From NCBI RefSeq assembly GCF_020531985.1, contig NZ_JAJAVQ010000002.1, positions 1 to 64,000 on the forward strand: DNA of 64,000 nt, read 5' to 3'. The notes beneath the pieces were generated by a model, which saw only the letters and a program-made list of their open reading frames with translations, ran no database searches and had not been told where the DNA came from. A program made the translations under genes and the position numbers. This document shows, piece by piece, positions 7,529-26,367 of this stretch; positions within the stretch are counted from its first letter, which is position 1; each line of letters opens with the position of its first letter. The stretch comes from Rheinheimera aquimaris. GTDB lineage: Bacteria; Pseudomonadota; Gammaproteobacteria; Enterobacterales; Alteromonadaceae.

Positions 7529-8638
7529 TTACAGGTTGGCGATCATGTCACCAACACGGATAGGCCGTTGGGTTTTGGTCACGATAGCAAAGCTGGTGCG
7601 CTCAGACACTTTAAATACCATCAACTCACCCACTTTTTCCCGTGGCAGCGTGATAGTATCTTCGCCAAAATTTTTAAACATCTTTTGTAGCTTGTTTGCA
7701 TCCTCAACATATACCGGACCGTTTTTGCCATCGATCACTGTAGGTGAGTTACGATAAATACCCAGCATATGTCCGGCCTTGAGTTCACTCAGCGTGCCAC
7801 GGTTCAACACCACGATATCCCATTTAGAAAATTCACGCAGGTTAGAGGTGGTATCGATAATAGTGCCCGACACATCAAACTCCGGTTTTTGCATCACAAA
7901 GAAAGCTGGTAGTGCTTGCCCTTCCAGCGCAGGCATAACCCGGTCACCTTGTTTGATCTCACGCTTAACACTGAGCACATTCAAAGACGATGCCTCTGCC
8001 GGAGTATCTTCTGTCGCTTCACGGCCACTTCTGAAAGCGCGCGCAGTTGCAATTAACGTAGTTTCGTAACCAAGCAGGTCGCCGGTTTCTAAATCAATGT
8101 AAGGCTTGCCTTTGCGATACACGCCATATGATGCCCCGCTTTCCAGTACGCCCTTGGCGTAGATGGTATGGTCACCGACAGAGTTCTTAACATTGGCATT
8201 CGACCCCAGAATATAAGGTAATGCTTTGATCTGTTCATCATCAAGTGATTGTTCGAAGGTAAGATAATGGCGGATCATACTCAGCGGCAACGTACTTACA
8301 GCATCTCCACCTTTCATTGTTTTACGAATACCTGGAGATAAGCGTTTTACATTGTCATTAACTATCAGCCTTGGCCTGCCCTGAGCATCGTAAGTTAACG
8401 TTAGCGTATCACCGGGATAAATCAGATGCGGGTTATCAATTTGCGGGTTCATCTGCCATAACTGAGGCCACAACCAGGGTTCGTTCAAATACAGTGCAGA
8501 GATATCCCACAACGTGTCGCCTTTTTTCACCACATAGTTTGCAGGAGCATCGTCACGGATCTTTAGTACGTCCGCAAACACGTTAAAACAGCCACTCAAT
8601 ACAATCAGAGTGACAATCATTGCAATTTTTTTCAGCAT
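7529..8638 (-). CDS. LysM-domain envelope protein, probable lipoprotein
   Basis: A 369-residue exported protein. The first 17 residues form a signal peptide with a possible lipobox LSGC (cysteine 17), although an AD cleavage site at 22-23 would also serve signal peptidase I. A LysM peptidoglycan-binding domain follows at about 35-81 (VKKGDTLWDIS through YPGDTLTL). The rest has no motif I can name. The ATG at 8638 puts the signal peptide at the N terminus and follows AAGGATG; an ATG 42 bases upstream would bury it. It heads the operon with dprA, smg and yrdD and is divergent from def. Such genes are a regular neighbour of dprA in marine gammaproteobacteria; the role is presumably cell-wall binding. 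Confidence 0.85.
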   Translation of the reverse strand: MLKKIAMIVTLIVLSGCFNVFADVLKIRDDAPANYVVKKGDTLWDISALYLNEPWLWPQLWQMNPQIDNPHLIYPGDTLTLTYDAQGRPRLIVNDNVKRLSPGIRKTMKGGDAVSTLPLSMIRHYLTFEQSLDDEQIKALPYILGSNANVKNSVGDHTIYAKGVLESGASYGVYRKGKPYIDLETGDLLGYETTLIATARAFRSGREATEDTPAEASSLNVLSVKREIKQGDRVMPALEGQALPAFFVMQKPEFDVSGTIIDTTSNLREFSKWDIVVLNRGTLSELKAGHMLGIYRNSPTVIDGKNGPVYVEDANKLQKMFKNFGEDTITLPREKVGELMVFKVSERTSFAIVTKTQRPIRVGDMIANL

Positions 8639-8761
8639 GCCTGCATCCTTGAGCTCGATCTTGTTGTAATTATTGCACACTAAGCTGTTAATACAGCGGA
8701 TTAATGGCTAAAATTAAAACATACCACAACCTTTGAAACAAAGCATATTTTTGTAGGTGTT

Positions 8762-9277
8762 ATGGCAGTTTTACAAGTTTTACATTTCCCGGACGAACGG
8801 CTACGTACCGTAGCAAAACCGGTAGACAAAATTACCCCCGAGATTCAGCAATTAGTGACTGATATGCTCGACACTATGTATGACGAGAACGGCATCGGGC
8901 TGGCAGCAACTCAGATCGATGTGCACCAGCGCGTTGTTGTGATCGATATTTCTGAAGACCGTAATGAACCCATGGTGTTTATTAATCCGGAAATTACCTC
9001 ACGCAGCGGTGAAACCAGCTATGAAGAAGGCTGTTTGTCTGTACCACAGAACTACGCCAAAGTTGAGCGGGCAGCTGAAGTAACCGTAAAAGCGCAAGAC
9101 AGGGACGGCAACTGGTTTGAACTGCACGCTGACGGCTTGCTGGCTATTTGTCTGCAACACGAACTCGATCATTTGCTCGGTAAACTGTTTATCGATTACC
9201 TGTCTCCGTTAAAGCGGGATCGCATCAGGAAAAAGCTGGAAAAAGAAGCCAAAATGGCGCAGCGCCACGCGCTGTAA
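8762..9277 (+). CDS. def: Peptide deformylase
   Basis: Metal-dependent enzyme removing the N-formyl group from new proteins. The 171 residues carry all three active-site motifs: GIGLAATQ at 44-51, EEGCLSV with metal ligand C91, and HELDH at 133-137 with the two histidine ligands and catalytic Glu. It is the first gene of the def-fmt-rsmB-trkA operon, the same order as in E. coli, with fmt 12 bases downstream. Confidence 0.97.
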
Positions 9278-17933: not shown

Positions 17934-21267
<3,334 letters not shown>

Positions 21268-21313
21268 TTTGAGCGGCCGTAAGCTGGTAGCAAGTAACAC
21301 AATCGCATAAAAT

Positions 21314-21339
21314 AAGGGCCGCTTTTTTCGGCCCTTTTT
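21314..21339 (+). terminator. Rho-independent terminator of fadBA
   Basis: An 8-bp stem AAGGGCCG/CGGCCCTT with a CTTTTTT loop is followed by a T-run. It starts 46 bases after the fadA stop. Confidence 0.85.
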
Positions 21340-21340
21340 A

Positions 21341-21470
21341 TTGCTTTAGACGAAGCAGCAATCTATAACCCTGAAGCTTGCAACCCCGATCCCGCAGCCA
21401 CAGAGTGTCTGGGGATTTGCGCCAGCAAAGCCGAGTTGCTGTGACGAGGACAGCGGGTGTTACAAGCTTC
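21341..21470. repeat. Structured inverted-repeat element, likely intergenic repeat
   Basis: The 294-base gap between fadA and tusA holds, after the terminator, a nested inverted repeat. Arms GAAGCTTGCAACCCCG (21373-21388) and CGGGTGTTACAAGCTTC (21454-21470) pair with one mismatch and one extra base. An inner hairpin CAGCAA/TTGCTG (21423-21441) lies within, and a small GCTT/AAGC hairpin precedes it (21343-21356). A related fragment AGCTTGTAACCCC occurs at 27439-27451. A 61-codon open frame on the minus strand covers it but has no ribosome binding site I can support. It looks like a member of a dispersed repeat family; copy number cannot be judged from this window. From 21471 to 21561 I see nothing else. 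Confidence 0.5.
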
Positions 21471-21561
21471 GCCGGGCCAGCAGTCTCTGGCTGCGTTGTC
21501 AGTGTTTTAATTTCAGTGTCCACTTAGTGGTGCTTGAACGTACAGTTTTACCGGAGTATAA

Positions 21562-21810
21562 ATGGAAGATATTTTTAACAGCGCAGATCAAACACTGGAC
21601 GCTTTAGGCTTGCGCTGCCCCGAGCCGGTAATGATGGTACGACTGCAAATGCGCAAAATGCAGGTAGGCGAAACCCTGCTGATTATCGCCGACGACCCGG
21701 CCACCACCCGTGATATCCCCGCTTTTTGCCGGTTTATGGAGCATGAGTTAGTGGACAGTGATACGACAGAGTTGCCGTATCGATATGTAGTGAAAAAGGT
21801 TAGTGGCTAA
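21562..21810 (+). CDS. tusA: TusA/SirA-family sulfurtransferase
   Basis: An 82-residue protein of the TusA family, which carries persulfide sulfur on a conserved cysteine, in E. coli for 2-thiouridine formation in tRNA. The signature [13 protein letters not shown] (Cys at about 20, followed by PxP) is complete, and the ferredoxin-like fold length is right. Several paralogous families share this motif, so the precise acceptor is uncertain. The gene stands alone after the repeat element; its end overlaps the convergent transglycosylase gene by 11 bases. Confidence 0.87.
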
Positions 21811-22438
21811 ACTTTTCGGACTTGCGATGCCCAACACTCGCAAGTTTATCCTCAATATATTTAACTCGATTCATATGTTTTGACATCCAAGCTGTGCTTT
21901 GCAAACTAGGCTCTGGATACTTCAACCTTGAGACTATAGAAATCTTGTCTGCTTCTGAAGCTAGCTTCAAGTTGCCGCCAACAACTAACGTCAATCCCGT
22001 TAGCCCATTCAGCCCCTGCCCATAATGCGCTATTGAAAGATAAGCGGTTGCTATATCTAGCTTAGTTCTTTTCCTGGATAGCATCATAGCAACGACCTGC
22101 TCTCTCAGTTTCCGTTTTAAAGACCTCTCATAATCTTCAGTGGCTACTCGGACAAACTGTTGCTCAATTGTGCTAGCACCTTGAATTTTCCCTCTCGATA
22201 ATTTGACAAATATAGCTCTCGCTACCCCGATTGGGTCAACACCAAAATGTTGGAAATATCGATGGTCTTCAGCAGCAACGAGATAAGGAACATAGCTGTC
22301 TAGCGAACTATTACTTATTGTATCGACTTTATCTAAGCAGATTCTTATACGGCTTCTTACGTCCATTATATTCAGGACGAAAAAGACGACTAAGACCAAC
22401 TGTAGAGGTAATACCAAGAAAAATAGTAGTTGCTTCAA
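21800..22438 (-). CDS. Stand-alone GT51 peptidoglycan transglycosylase domain protein
   Basis: A 212-residue protein with one N-terminal membrane segment (about 4-24) and a glycosyltransferase family 51 domain, the enzyme class that polymerises lipid II into glycan strands. Motif 1 is [14 protein letters not shown] with the catalytic Glu, motif 2 is [11 protein letters not shown], and the later SKDEILEhYLN-type motif reads [11 protein letters not shown], so the usual Glu there is Asp. There is no transpeptidase domain. It resembles MtgA but is shorter and sits in a different context. It overlaps the next gene upstream (22435) by 4 bases. The region is visibly AT-richer than its neighbours (22 of 60 bases are G or C in line 22021-22080), suggesting transfer. 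Confidence 0.8.
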
Positions 22439-22929
22439 AAAGGCGCCCTTTGAATCAATACGCGCCCATCTTGATCGGCAACCATGGATTTAAAAGTGCC
22501 TGCGAGCTCAGTTTTTGTCGTTGCAACAACATCATAGAAGTTTGTAGATTGCCTACCATGTCCATCTTCAACTACATGCAAAAATATACGGTCTTTACTT
22601 AAATAGTTCTTCTCTAATGAACCATTTATGATTGCTCTTGTTCTCGATTTGCCGATAAATTCGCGTTCACCAGTGGAAGAGTTTTCGTAGATCTTTTCTG
22701 CACTCCCCTTAATGCAGCCCCCCTCTCTCCAGATTACTAAAACATAACGAAGAATCATCCCCTTATAAGGGTTGTAAGCTGAACTCTCTGTAGTCATCTG
22801 CAAATACCATTTTCCTGTAATGTCAAATGGCGGAAATACCCTTTCCCTAAACAGAAAGAAAAGAAACGTCAGTACGACACCTCCAAGCAATGTGACAGCT
22901 AAATCGGCCCAGAAAGTCTCAAAATTCAT
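22435..22929 (-). CDS. Membrane-anchored protein of unknown function
   Basis: I do not recognise this 164-residue protein. It has one N-terminal membrane helix (about 9-27, LAVTLLGGVVLTFLFFLFR) and then a domain beginning DITGKWYLQM that reads as beta-rich (alternating strands such as MILRYVLVIWREGG, RTRAIINGSLEKNYL and ELAGTFKSMVA). The G-K-W start and the final GTFKS strand recall small lipocalin-like barrels, but that is only an impression. Its stop overlaps the transglycosylase start by 4 bases, and its start overlaps the end of the Excalibur gene by 11 bases, so the three genes form one tight operon. Confidence 0.65.
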   Translation of the reverse strand: MNFETFWADLAVTLLGGVVLTFLFFLFRERVFPPFDITGKWYLQMTTESSAYNPYKGMILRYVLVIWREGGCIKGSAEKIYENSSTGEREFIGKSRTRAIINGSLEKNYLSKDRIFLHVVEDGHGRQSTNFYDVVATTKTELAGTFKSMVADQDGRVLIQRAPF

Positions 22930-23278
22930 TTATTCTCCACGTCTTAATGGTAGCTGATGCTTCTACAAACATATAAGCCACCGAAAATCTCGAATCATTC
23001 TCACAAGGTATACCATCTCTATCACCATCCATCTTGGTGTTAGGGCAATTCCGTAGAAAAAATTCTGCTTCAGCTCGAGATGTCATCTGGCTACAGTGCT
23101 GACGCCCATCACACTGAAAGTTCGGTTGCCTTGAGACGTTACGGGCTGCTTGCCCTTGCTCAGAATAATCCGGCAGTACAGATTCAGCTGGTTGAGAGTA
23201 AGGTTGTGGGGTGTTTTGCTTCTGGTAGTAATTCCAGGCACCTAAAGCTACTAAGGCAATTAATAAGAGTTTTTTCAT
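22919..23278 (-). CDS. Excalibur calcium-binding domain protein
   Basis: A 119-residue envelope protein: an N-terminal hydrophobic segment (about 4-15), a polar Pro/Gln/Ser linker, and an Excalibur domain at about 54-95 with FQCDGRQHCSQM and the calcium loop DGDRDGIPCE. In the homologues I recall the domain reads MTSC...CE..WC; here the Cys after MTS is Arg and the tail after CEN is unrelated (DSRFSVAYMF). Both expected cysteines are thus missing, as if a disulfide had been lost. The tail overlaps the next gene by 11 bases. First gene of the AT-rich cassette. Confidence 0.75.
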   Translation of the reverse strand: MKKLLLIALVALGAWNYYQKQNTPQPYSQPAESVLPDYSEQGQAARNVSRQPNFQCDGRQHCSQMTSRAEAEFFLRNCPNTKMDGDRDGIPCENDSRFSVAYMFVEASATIKTWRINEF

Positions 23279-23467
23279 CGCGGTACATCCCTGCGCATCA
23301 ATACAGTTCGCTTTCCCTGTGAATTAAAGTAAAGCAATGAATTCGGTACAGCAATCTTTTTAACTAATGGAGAGCTGATAATTCTCGAATATTGCTTTGA
23401 AATTAACTGTACATCACCTATTAAAAACTATGGCAAAATGCCGTTTTTAGCTTGTTGCGGAGCCGTT

Positions 23468-24262
23468 ATGCAACTGTCCCCTGCCGATTTACATATATTG
23501 CTGGTTGAGCCGTCTGATGTTCAGCGCAAAATCATCCGCAAGAAACTGGCGGAAGAAAACGTTAACCAAGTGGTAGAAGCAGCCAGCATGCAACAGGCGA
23601 TGCAGCATATTGCGCAGCATAAACCCGATGCCATTGCCTGTGCCCTGCACTTTGCCGACGGTACCGGCGAGCAACTCCTTAAACAGTTAAAAGCCGATGC
23701 GGCCACCGCTGACATTCCTTTTATGCTGGTGTCCAGCGAAAGCCGCAAAGCCCAGCTGGAAGCCTTTAAACAGTCCGGTGTGGTGGCTATTTTGCCCAAG
23801 CCATTTGATGCGATGCAGCTGGGTAAAGCATTAAACGCAGCGGTAGACTTGTTAAGCCCGGCTGAGCTTGAGCTAACGCTGTTTGATGTGCACGATGTGC
23901 GGGTATTGGTGGTTGATGACAGTAAGCTGGCGCGAAACCATATTAAGCGTGTGCTGGGTAATTTGGGTATGCAGCATATTATTGAAGCCGAAGATGGCCA
24001 ACAGGCAATCAGCATTTTACAGCAGCAAATGTTTGATCTGGTCGTTACCGATTACAACATGCCGGAAGTTAACGGTCAGGAGCTGACCGAATACATCCGC
24101 GAGCACAGCACTTTGTCGCACATTCCGGTGCTGATGGTCACCAGCGAAGCCAACGATACCCATCTGGCGAATATTGCCCAAAGCGGCGTTAATGCGCTGT
24201 GCGATAAACCCTTCGAGCCTGACGCAGTCAAGCAGTTGCTATACCGCTTACTTGAACAGTAA
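23468..24262 (+). CDS. Double-receiver response regulator without output domain
   Basis: A 264-residue protein of two CheY-like receiver domains. In the second (about 150-264) the acid pocket VVDDS, phospho-acceptor Asp in DLVVTDYNMPEVNG, the TS of MVTSEA and Lys in CDKPFEP are all present. In the first (about 5-120) the Asp position is Ala (PDAIACALHFADG), although the Lys of LPKPFD remains, so it is probably a pseudo-receiver. There is no DNA-binding or enzymatic domain. The ATG at 23468 follows GGAG; an ATG ten codons upstream has no such site. The gene stands alone; no kinase adjoins it. It could act in chemotaxis-like or relay signalling. Confidence 0.85.
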   Translation: MQLSPADLHILLVEPSDVQRKIIRKKLAEENVNQVVEAASMQQAMQHIAQHKPDAIACALHFADGTGEQLLKQLKADAATADIPFMLVSSESRKAQLEAFKQSGVVAILPKPFDAMQLGKALNAAVDLLSPAELELTLFDVHDVRVLVVDDSKLARNHIKRVLGNLGMQHIIEAEDGQQAISILQQQMFDLVVTDYNMPEVNGQELTEYIREHSTLSHIPVLMVTSEANDTHLANIAQSGVNALCDKPFEPDAVKQLLYRLLEQ

Positions 24263-24265
24263 AAC

Positions 24266-24293
24266 AAAAAGCCAGCTTAACGCTGGCTTTTTT
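24266..24293. terminator. Bidirectional terminator between the double-receiver gene and glyS
   Basis: A stem AAAAAGCCAGC/GCTGGCTTTTTT with a 5-base loop has A-runs on one side and T-runs on the other. It can serve both the plus-strand receiver gene and the minus-strand glyS, which ends at 24310. Confidence 0.85.
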
Positions 24294-24309
24294 AATTTAT
24301 TTCAATGCC

Positions 24310-26367
24310 TTACTGCAGCACTGAAATATCAGCTACCTGCAGGAACAACTCCCGCAGCTGTTTTAACAGCGCCTGACGGTTAGCCCGTACCGCTGCGTCA
24401 TCGGCGTTTACCATCACTTTATCAAAGAAGTTATCAATAACGTCACGCATAGCAGCTAAGTGCGCCAGGCCTTCAGCATAGCTGTGCTGGCCTGCCTGAT
24501 AGGCTTGCTCGGCCACTATGGCACTGTGCAGTGCCTGCTCGGCCTCTTCCTGCAATAAAGCGGCGTTAACGGTATTGGCAATATCGCCTTCTACTTTCGC
24601 CAGAATATTCGCTACCCGCTTGTTAGCGGCCGCTAAGGCTTCAGCAGCGTCCAGCTTGCGGAACTCCGCTACCGCTTTAACCCGGCGGTCAAAATCGCTT
24701 GGGTTGGTTGGCCGGCGAGCTAACACTGCCTGTATTACGTCTACACCGTAGCCCTCAGCTTCATACCAGGCGCGGAAACGTCCCAGCATAAACTCCAGTA
24801 CTTCTTCGGCCACTTTGGCATTGCTGAGCTTGCTGCCAAAGGTTTGCTGGCTAAAGGCAATAACGTCCACCAAATCCAGCGGCAGTTGTTTGTCGACCAT
24901 AATACGCAGTGCACCTATGGCAGCACGGCGCAGTGCAAACGGGTCTTTATCACCTTTTGGCGCCTGACCGATACCGAAAATACCGACCAGCGTATCCAGT
25001 TTATCGGCTATAGCTACCGCGGCGCCTTCAAGCCGGCTTGGCAGCTCATCACCGGCAAAACGCGGCATGTACTGCTCGTTCAGTGCCAGTGCTACCGCTT
25101 CGCTTTCGCCATCGAGGCGGGCGTAGTGCATGCCCATAATGCCCTGAACTTCCGGGAACTCGCCAACCATATTGGTCATCAGGTCAGTTTTTGATAACAA
25201 ACCGGCCCGCTCAGCGGCGGCGGCATCAGCGCCAATCTTAGCAGCAACAAAAGCCGCCACTTTGGCGATACGCTCTGACTTTTCAGCCAGCGTGCCCAGC
25301 TGCTGCTGAAACAACACGGTTTTTAAGCTATCCAGCCTATCGGCTAGCTTTTGCTTGCGGTCGGTATTAAAGAAGAACTGCGCATCAGATAAACGCGGAC
25401 GCACCACTTTCTCGTTACCGCTGATAATCTGCTGCGGATCTTTGCTGGCAATGTTGGCGACAAAGATAAACTTGTTCTGCAGCTTGCCGTTGTTATCCAG
25501 CAGCGGAAAATACTTCTGGTTGTCTTTCATGGTAGAAATCAACGGCTCTGCCGGCACCTGCAGGAAGCTTTCTTCAAAGCTGCCTACCAGCACCACCGGC
25601 CACTCGACCAAGGAAGTCACTTCTTCCAGCAGCGCATCATCCATTTGCGCCTGACCGTTTAAGCTGGCCGCTGTTTTAGCAACTTCGCCAGCGATAAAGG
25701 CTTTACGCTCGGCAAAATCGGCCACAACATAGGCGCTACGCATCGTCGCCAGGTAGTCATCTGCATGGGCAATGCTAACTTTTTCGGGCGCGTGAAAACG
25801 ATGGCCATGCGTTTGATTACCACTGTTGCGACCCAGAATTGTCGCCGGCACCACGTCGCGGCCAAACAGCATAATAATGGTATGCACCGGACGGATAAAT
25901 TCCGCCGTAGAGTTACCCCAACGCATTGGCTTGGCAACCGGCAGCTTGGCCAGAGCCTGTTGCACTACCTCAGGCAGTAACGACACGGTCGTAGCGCCGA
26001 CTACTTTGGCTTTGTGCAGCAGCCAGGCGCCTTTATCGGTTTCCAGCTTTTCCGCCTGTTCTACCGCAATACCACAACCGGCGGCCCAGCCCTGGGCGGC
26101 TTTGGTTGGCTTACCGTCTGCATCAAAAGCAGACGCGATAGCCGGGCCGCGCTTTTCTACCACCTTATCCGCCTGCTGGGCTGATAAGGCATTAATACGC
26201 ACGGCTAAACGGCGCGGTGCCGCATACCACTGCACATCGCTGTGGCTAAGTTCAAGTTTGGCCAGCTCAGCACACAGGTTATCGGCAAAGGCGGTCGCCA
26301 GCGTTTTCAGCGCTTTTGGTGGCAGCTCTTCAGTGCCAATTTCAACAAAAAAATCTTGCGCTGCCAT
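24310..26367 (-). CDS. glyS: Glycyl-tRNA synthetase beta subunit
   Basis: Beta chain of the alpha2beta2 glycyl-tRNA synthetase, involved mainly in tRNA binding. The 685-residue length is close to E. coli GlyS (689). Family features include the start [15 protein letters not shown], a [19 protein letters not shown] stretch, an HD-like middle segment and the anticodon-binding-like C terminus. Its ATG overlaps the glyQ stop by one base (26367), so translation of the two subunits is coupled. Confidence 0.97.

Follow-up and report, generated by a model that had tools for sequence, protein, structure and literature searches.

The subject of this report is a pair of small overlapping genes in a 64,000-nucleotide stretch of Rheinheimera aquimaris DNA (positions 1 to 64,000 of contig NZ_JAJAVQ010000002.1, assembly GCF_020531985.1), referred to here as the window. 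One gene encodes a membrane-anchored protein with a predicted beta-barrel (the barrel protein) and the other a stand-alone GT51 peptidoglycan polymerase, and together they form a mobile, selected, two-gene membrane module. A first-pass annotation had described three minus-strand genes at this locus, with 11- and 4-base overlaps, encoding an Excalibur protein, an unrecognized DITGKW protein and a GT51 polymerase that lacks a transpeptidase domain. Its coordinates are confirmed (Table 1), and Pfam gives the same three assignments. Its suggestion of a small transferred module also stands, except that the module is the pair and not the trio: no Excalibur gene was noticed by eye next to the pair other than in G000 and G015, whereas the barrel and GT51 genes accompany each other in other genera, in prophages, on a plasmid and in defence islands.

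The conserved unit consists of two genes. Searches with the barrel protein detected it in 3 of 31 genomes of the genus, 7 of 394 genomes of the order, counting that of the window, and one of 72,556 plasmid records, for a total of 11 loci, two of which are in genome G156. In 10 of these 11 loci the GT51 gene comes next on the same strand, and the order and lengths of the two genes are conserved. A viral scan with a GT51 alignment returned seven loci, several of them near-copies of one another, and the barrel gene is directly upstream in all seven. When the longest open reading frames (ORFs) were measured at 11 loci, viral ones included, the two genes overlapped at all but one, by 4 to 58 bases; in G414 an 8-base gap separates them. 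G320 has a barrel homologue (positions 8277-8768 of locus L018, minus strand) with no GT51 gene beside it, adjoining a gene for a 204-amino acid (aa) membrane protein; the barrel may have other partners.

Table 1. Features of the locus, in window coordinates.
Feature	Position	Strand	Remarks
Barrel gene (module gene 1; DITGKW protein of the first-pass annotation)	22435..22929	-	164 aa; membrane helix, then a nine-strand Cap15-like beta-barrel in the AlphaFold2 model
Predicted membrane helix of the barrel protein	22837..22923	-	residues 3-31; then R26 and R28 in an RER stretch
Soluble beta-barrel domain	22438..22830	-	residues 34-164; probably cytosolic, from the charges flanking the helix
Stand-alone GT51 peptidoglycan polymerase (module gene 2)	21800..22438	-	212 aa; TTG start; catalytic glutamates at residues 57 and 113
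Excalibur gene	22919..23278	-	119 aa; resident neighbour bounding the insertion slot, outside the module
tusA/sirA-like gene	21562..21810	+	conserved slot boundary, outside the module
Dispersed imperfect repeat	21345-21530		between genes 20101-21267 and 21562-21810

The pair is rare and occurs in mobile or defence sites. It is present in 5 of 5426 complete Escherichia coli genomes, and the barrel gene is present in 2 of 398 genomes in a wider sample of the phylum (both within the window's order), in one of 295 genomes of the family of G156 and in one of 369 genomes in a sample of the class, which is the window genome itself; neither the phylum nor the class sample contained a barrel outside the order. 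No barrel was detected in 50,697 phage records, and viral scans with the window barrel, the G414 barrel and Cap15 had no match; the E. coli barrel, used in the same way, returned four loci, all already in the set.

The E. coli copies illustrate these settings. In strain CE0011b the pair is in the cargo block of a P2-like prophage, between the tail-fibre assembly and tail-sheath genes. The block adjoins the tail-sheath gene FI, before which P2 carries fun(Z), annotated as 'blocks growth of T5; lysogenic conversion'. The cargo block of the pair thus resembles fun(Z) in lying directly before FI, but fun(Z) is just one gene, differs in size and strand, and has no GT51 noted. The site also differs from the old/tin hotspot as it appears in an excerpt of Rousset et al. 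(PMC9122126). FDAARGOS_1277 and MINF_1D have a lambdoid prophage with the pair between the antiterminator Q and holin genes, and in CREC_5, a locus left unopened, the same match has the same coordinates as these copies. Finally, NB4833 and plasmid NZ_CP050167.1 carry the pair in an integrase island that also encodes an ABC-three-component system, and the NB4833 proteins of this system score as Lamassu LmuA and LmuB. Three other genes travel with the E. coli pair (L022 12868-17516, with the same genes in L021 and L023); they encode proteins of 309 aa (with a HELGH motif), 157 aa and 259-271 aa, the last of which is HNH-like by eye, and neither the 309-aa nor the 259-271-aa protein has a Pfam or PADLOC match.

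Similar settings exist in other genomes. In G023, PD-Lambda-1, a complete Gabija system and a PDC-S49 protein are located within 13.4 kilobases on one side of the pair; ten further neighbours were scanned, and only the three G023 proteins had matches. The same Gabija/PD-Lambda-1 region encodes an 1183-aa protein (L013 13181-16732) with no Pfam or PADLOC match. One of the two G156 copies has genes for an IS3-type transposase, ParE, AbiEi and a P4-type primase nearby, and genes for a serine recombinase and an IS110 transposase adjoin the other. A DNA methyltransferase gene is one small ORF away from the pair in G269, and a phage integrase gene adjoins it in viral contig L026. Defence islands and phage moron sites, where an anti-phage system would be expected, are among the locations of the pair.

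The barrel protein had no significant match in sequence searches of Pfam, NCBIfam, PADLOC and the Protein Data Bank (PDB). The AlphaFold2 model of the window protein (predicted local distance difference test score 82.8) has its strands within residues 39-160, after the helix, and has the same beta-barrel fold as the Cap15/S-2TMbeta receptor family. A gap-cleaned comparison of barrel and Cap15 alignments gave a score of 21.7, and the best of 300 shuffles scored 18.9; a comparison with three Cap15 sequences only was weak (probability 11.8). Seven Cap15 plasmid loci were fetched, of which L079 was left unused. Six residues (T47, Y55, E78, K79, R96 and R126) are unchanged in all 12 barrel homologues. 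The window protein (P0002) has one membrane helix ahead of the barrel and the L032 homologue has two (residues 2-17 and 19-41). The earlier statement that all three products face the envelope is unsupported for the 164-aa protein, as the charges flanking its helix would favour a barrel domain that is probably cytosolic.

The 212-aa protein belongs to the Transgly/GT51 family (PF00912; 92.6 bits, cut-off 27) and has no transpeptidase domain. It has the QGxSTxxQQ and RK motifs; E57 and E113 are invariant in 10 of 10 sequences, and R105 and R112 vary. Like MtgA and the Staphylococcus aureus MGT, the module GT51 has an N-terminal membrane helix, no transpeptidase domain and its catalytic residues retained. 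Unlike host MtgA, it is paired with a barrel, falls in a separate clade and scores only 54.4 bits with the MtgA equivalog model TIGR02070, below the NCBIfam cut-off of 182.65. A host MtgA-sized GT51 is also present in G000, G015, G023, G226, G269, G283, G156 and G414. The E. coli GT51 matched 27 phage records, all at less than 60% identity and with coverage of at most 66%.

In a 43-row tree, from which three host matches of about 1025-1040 aa without a locus were left out, a branch with 100/100 support separates the 13 module GT51s from the 30 host GT51s. Order within the module clade is unsure because of long branches; the GT51 of G023, which is from the window's genus, does not group with those of G000 and G015. 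The two partners diverge together: barrel and GT51 distances are correlated (r 0.80 over 11 loci), and none of 2000 label permutations gave a value as high. G226 and one G156 copy, in which the barrel ORF was undelimited, were left out of this comparison. Both genes are under purifying selection, with ratios of non-synonymous to synonymous substitution rates between G000 and G015 of 0.057 (barrel) and 0.181 (GT51).

The 119-aa product of the Excalibur gene has an Excalibur domain (Pfam 41.6 bits, cut-off 22), and a 98-aa query had matches in 15 of the 31 genus genomes; tusA is present in all 31. In 11 genomes the Excalibur gene is within 2.5 kilobases of tusA without the pair. It directly adjoins tusA in eight of them (G003, G004, G010, G011, G018, G019, G022 and G028), which are empty sites for the pair, and other genes intervene in G025, G026 and G030. 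Its reading frame is interrupted in G003, G010, G011 and G025, and it is on a different contig from tusA in G009 and G023. Excalibur and the pair are together in G000 and G015, and none was seen by eye beside the pair at the other opened loci. Even the overlap is local: in G015 the Excalibur gene ends 54 bases ahead of the barrel gene, and the frame in the window extends beyond the stop of this homologue, which creates the 11-base overlap. Excalibur was rejected as a module member, since 11 genomes have it in the slot but lack the pair there; it is a resident bystander. That Excalibur, barrel and GT51 were transferred as one envelope module, as the overlaps and AT-richness of the three genes in the window had suggested, is thus hardly credible.

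Base composition tells less than might be expected. The hand counts in the first-pass annotation were right (36.7% guanine plus cytosine [GC] at 22021-22080, 50% at 24841-24900), and the odd composition of the three genes is real. Their GC contents (41.2, 41.0 and 43.1%) are below the mean of 50.6% (standard deviation 2.1) for the 35 window ORFs of at least 250 aa, and their codon adaptation values are 0.50, 0.56 and 0.63, against 0.73 (standard deviation 0.04; lowest of the 35, 0.647). However, the resident Excalibur gene is AT-rich too, so low GC alone would mislead, and it was not used as proof of transfer.

What might the pair do? A role in cell-wall modification could be proposed from GT51 family membership alone. 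The neighbouring genes make phage exclusion the likeliest role of the module, and the pair may stop phages in a manner not yet described. Our preferred reading, to which we give about an even chance, is a phage-exclusion module in which a cytosolic barrel controls a periplasmic wall polymerase. We infer its topology, complex, signal, anti-phage action and mechanism as follows. Gene 1 would encode an inner-membrane protein with a Cap15-like beta-barrel facing the cytosol, and gene 2 an extra monofunctional GT51 with its catalytic domain in the periplasm. Translation is probably coupled, since the genes overlap, and contacts between the membrane helices of the two proteins probably hold them in a complex. 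On detecting a cytosolic sign of phage attack, small and probably anionic, the barrel would switch the polymerase on or release it. Unscheduled glycan polymerization might then harden the envelope against the phage, or drain lipid II and stop growth, so that infection fails.

Several observations weigh against this reading. Two of the 12 barrels have no excess of positive charge after the helix. Designed barrels and a dehydrogenase domain have structural scores tied with that of Cap15, and avidins score about 1 lower; the Pfam Cap15 model (PF18153) matches none of the 12 barrels at E values up to 10 with the HMMER filters on. In a first column-shuffle control 3 of 100 shuffles scored 130-134, against 29.3 for the real comparison; these were presumed to be artefacts of gap-rich columns. 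None of the eight pair genomes searched encodes a SMODS cyclase (PF18144; other cyclase families were not searched), and so there is no obvious source of a Cap15-type signal. In G320 there are just two GT51 matches, each in a frame as long as that of a penicillin-binding protein, and no module GT51. As for the neighbourhoods, they were read without matched control loci, and no defence gene was seen by eye, without a PADLOC scan, at the G226, G283 and G414 loci. PADLOC-DB 2.0.0 has no match for the three window proteins at E values up to 1, and the one match among the 12 barrels (AbiQ, E 0.043) is not meaningful.

In a bolder form of the preferred reading, the pair would be a new class of prokaryotic immune system with a peptidoglycan polymerase as its effector. 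A cytosolic Cap15-related barrel, lacking a cyclase partner, would detect a nucleotide or phosphorylated wall precursor with a level that shifts during infection, and through its membrane helix would unleash the periplasmic GT51, with wall remodelling that aborts infection; this is possible if rather doubtful. Other explanations must also be weighed. The intact catalytic residues, alongside the host's own GT51s, would also suit a wall fortifier acquired by lysogenic conversion, with an extra polymerase protecting against lysozyme, predators, wall hydrolases of rivals or wall antibiotics and a barrel that monitors how much wall precursor is available; genes of this kind are common on prophages and plasmids. 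However, the neighbours of the pair are mostly phage-defence genes, and one prophage copy is in the slot where P2 has the anti-T5 gene fun(Z), which makes this unlikely.

Two small overlapping genes, barrel first, with conserved length and order, at sites that toxin-antitoxin genes also occupy, have the form of a toxin-antitoxin system; a free GT51 would be harmful, the barrel would restrain it, and the outcome would be element maintenance or abortive infection. We consider this quite unlikely, as GT51 is a core wall enzyme of which every pair genome searched already has several, and as the barrel is alone in G320. In viral contig L032 (by eye) and in both of the E. coli lambdoid prophages that were opened, the pair immediately precedes the holin and lysozyme genes, a position that would fit a lysis-timing factor whose polymerase counteracts endolysin and delays lysis. 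The copies in the P2 slot, the islands and the window are away from lysis genes or outside phages, however, and this role is very improbable.

The S-2TMbeta effectors include Cap15 of the cyclic oligonucleotide-based anti-phage signalling system (CBASS) and OptE of Panoptes, as described in excerpts of two papers (PMC12657218, PMC10686824). The window protein differs from both in having one clear helix, no Pfam Cap15 match, no SMODS cyclase in the eight genomes and a GT51 gene that comes next; CBASS membership was rejected on the cyclase result. The pair is undescribed among the literature matches listed, and a literature search with four protein accessions of the E. coli copies found no paper containing them.

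If the preferred reading is true, the mobile pair links an immune-type receptor fold with an enzyme that builds wall, and cell-wall synthesis would join the activities of immune effectors, which, to our knowledge, cut nucleic acid, drain nicotinamide adenine dinucleotide or open membranes. It would also provide a role for genes annotated without context as 'transglycosylase domain-containing protein' in E. coli prophages. As a small two-gene system that would sense on one side of the membrane and catalyse on the other, it is directly testable.

The surroundings of the pair deserve a few comments. The tusA/sirA-like gene overlaps the end of the GT51 gene by 11 bases. The 3' side of tusA in Rheinheimera (L041-L069) is a variable insertion slot; among the 30 of 31 genomes for which the locus was returned, the neighbour is the pair (G000, G015), Excalibur or others. 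A small helix-turn-helix antitoxin-like gene was recognized there by eye in G005, G009, G013, G023 and G026. Of five neighbours scanned with PADLOC, that of G025 is PifA-like (E 6.7e-23), that of G021 matches a dCTPase defence model (E 2e-148) and those of G027, G030 and G013 have no match. PifA-like, dCTPase-type and antitoxin-like genes thus occupy the slot by species, a possible defence hotspot of the genus. There is no tRNA gene in the window or in 11 loci, and no Rfam family at 21200-24400. The 'repeat-like element' of the first-pass annotation is the dispersed repeat of Table 1, which has eight more partial matches in the genome, 70-85% identical.
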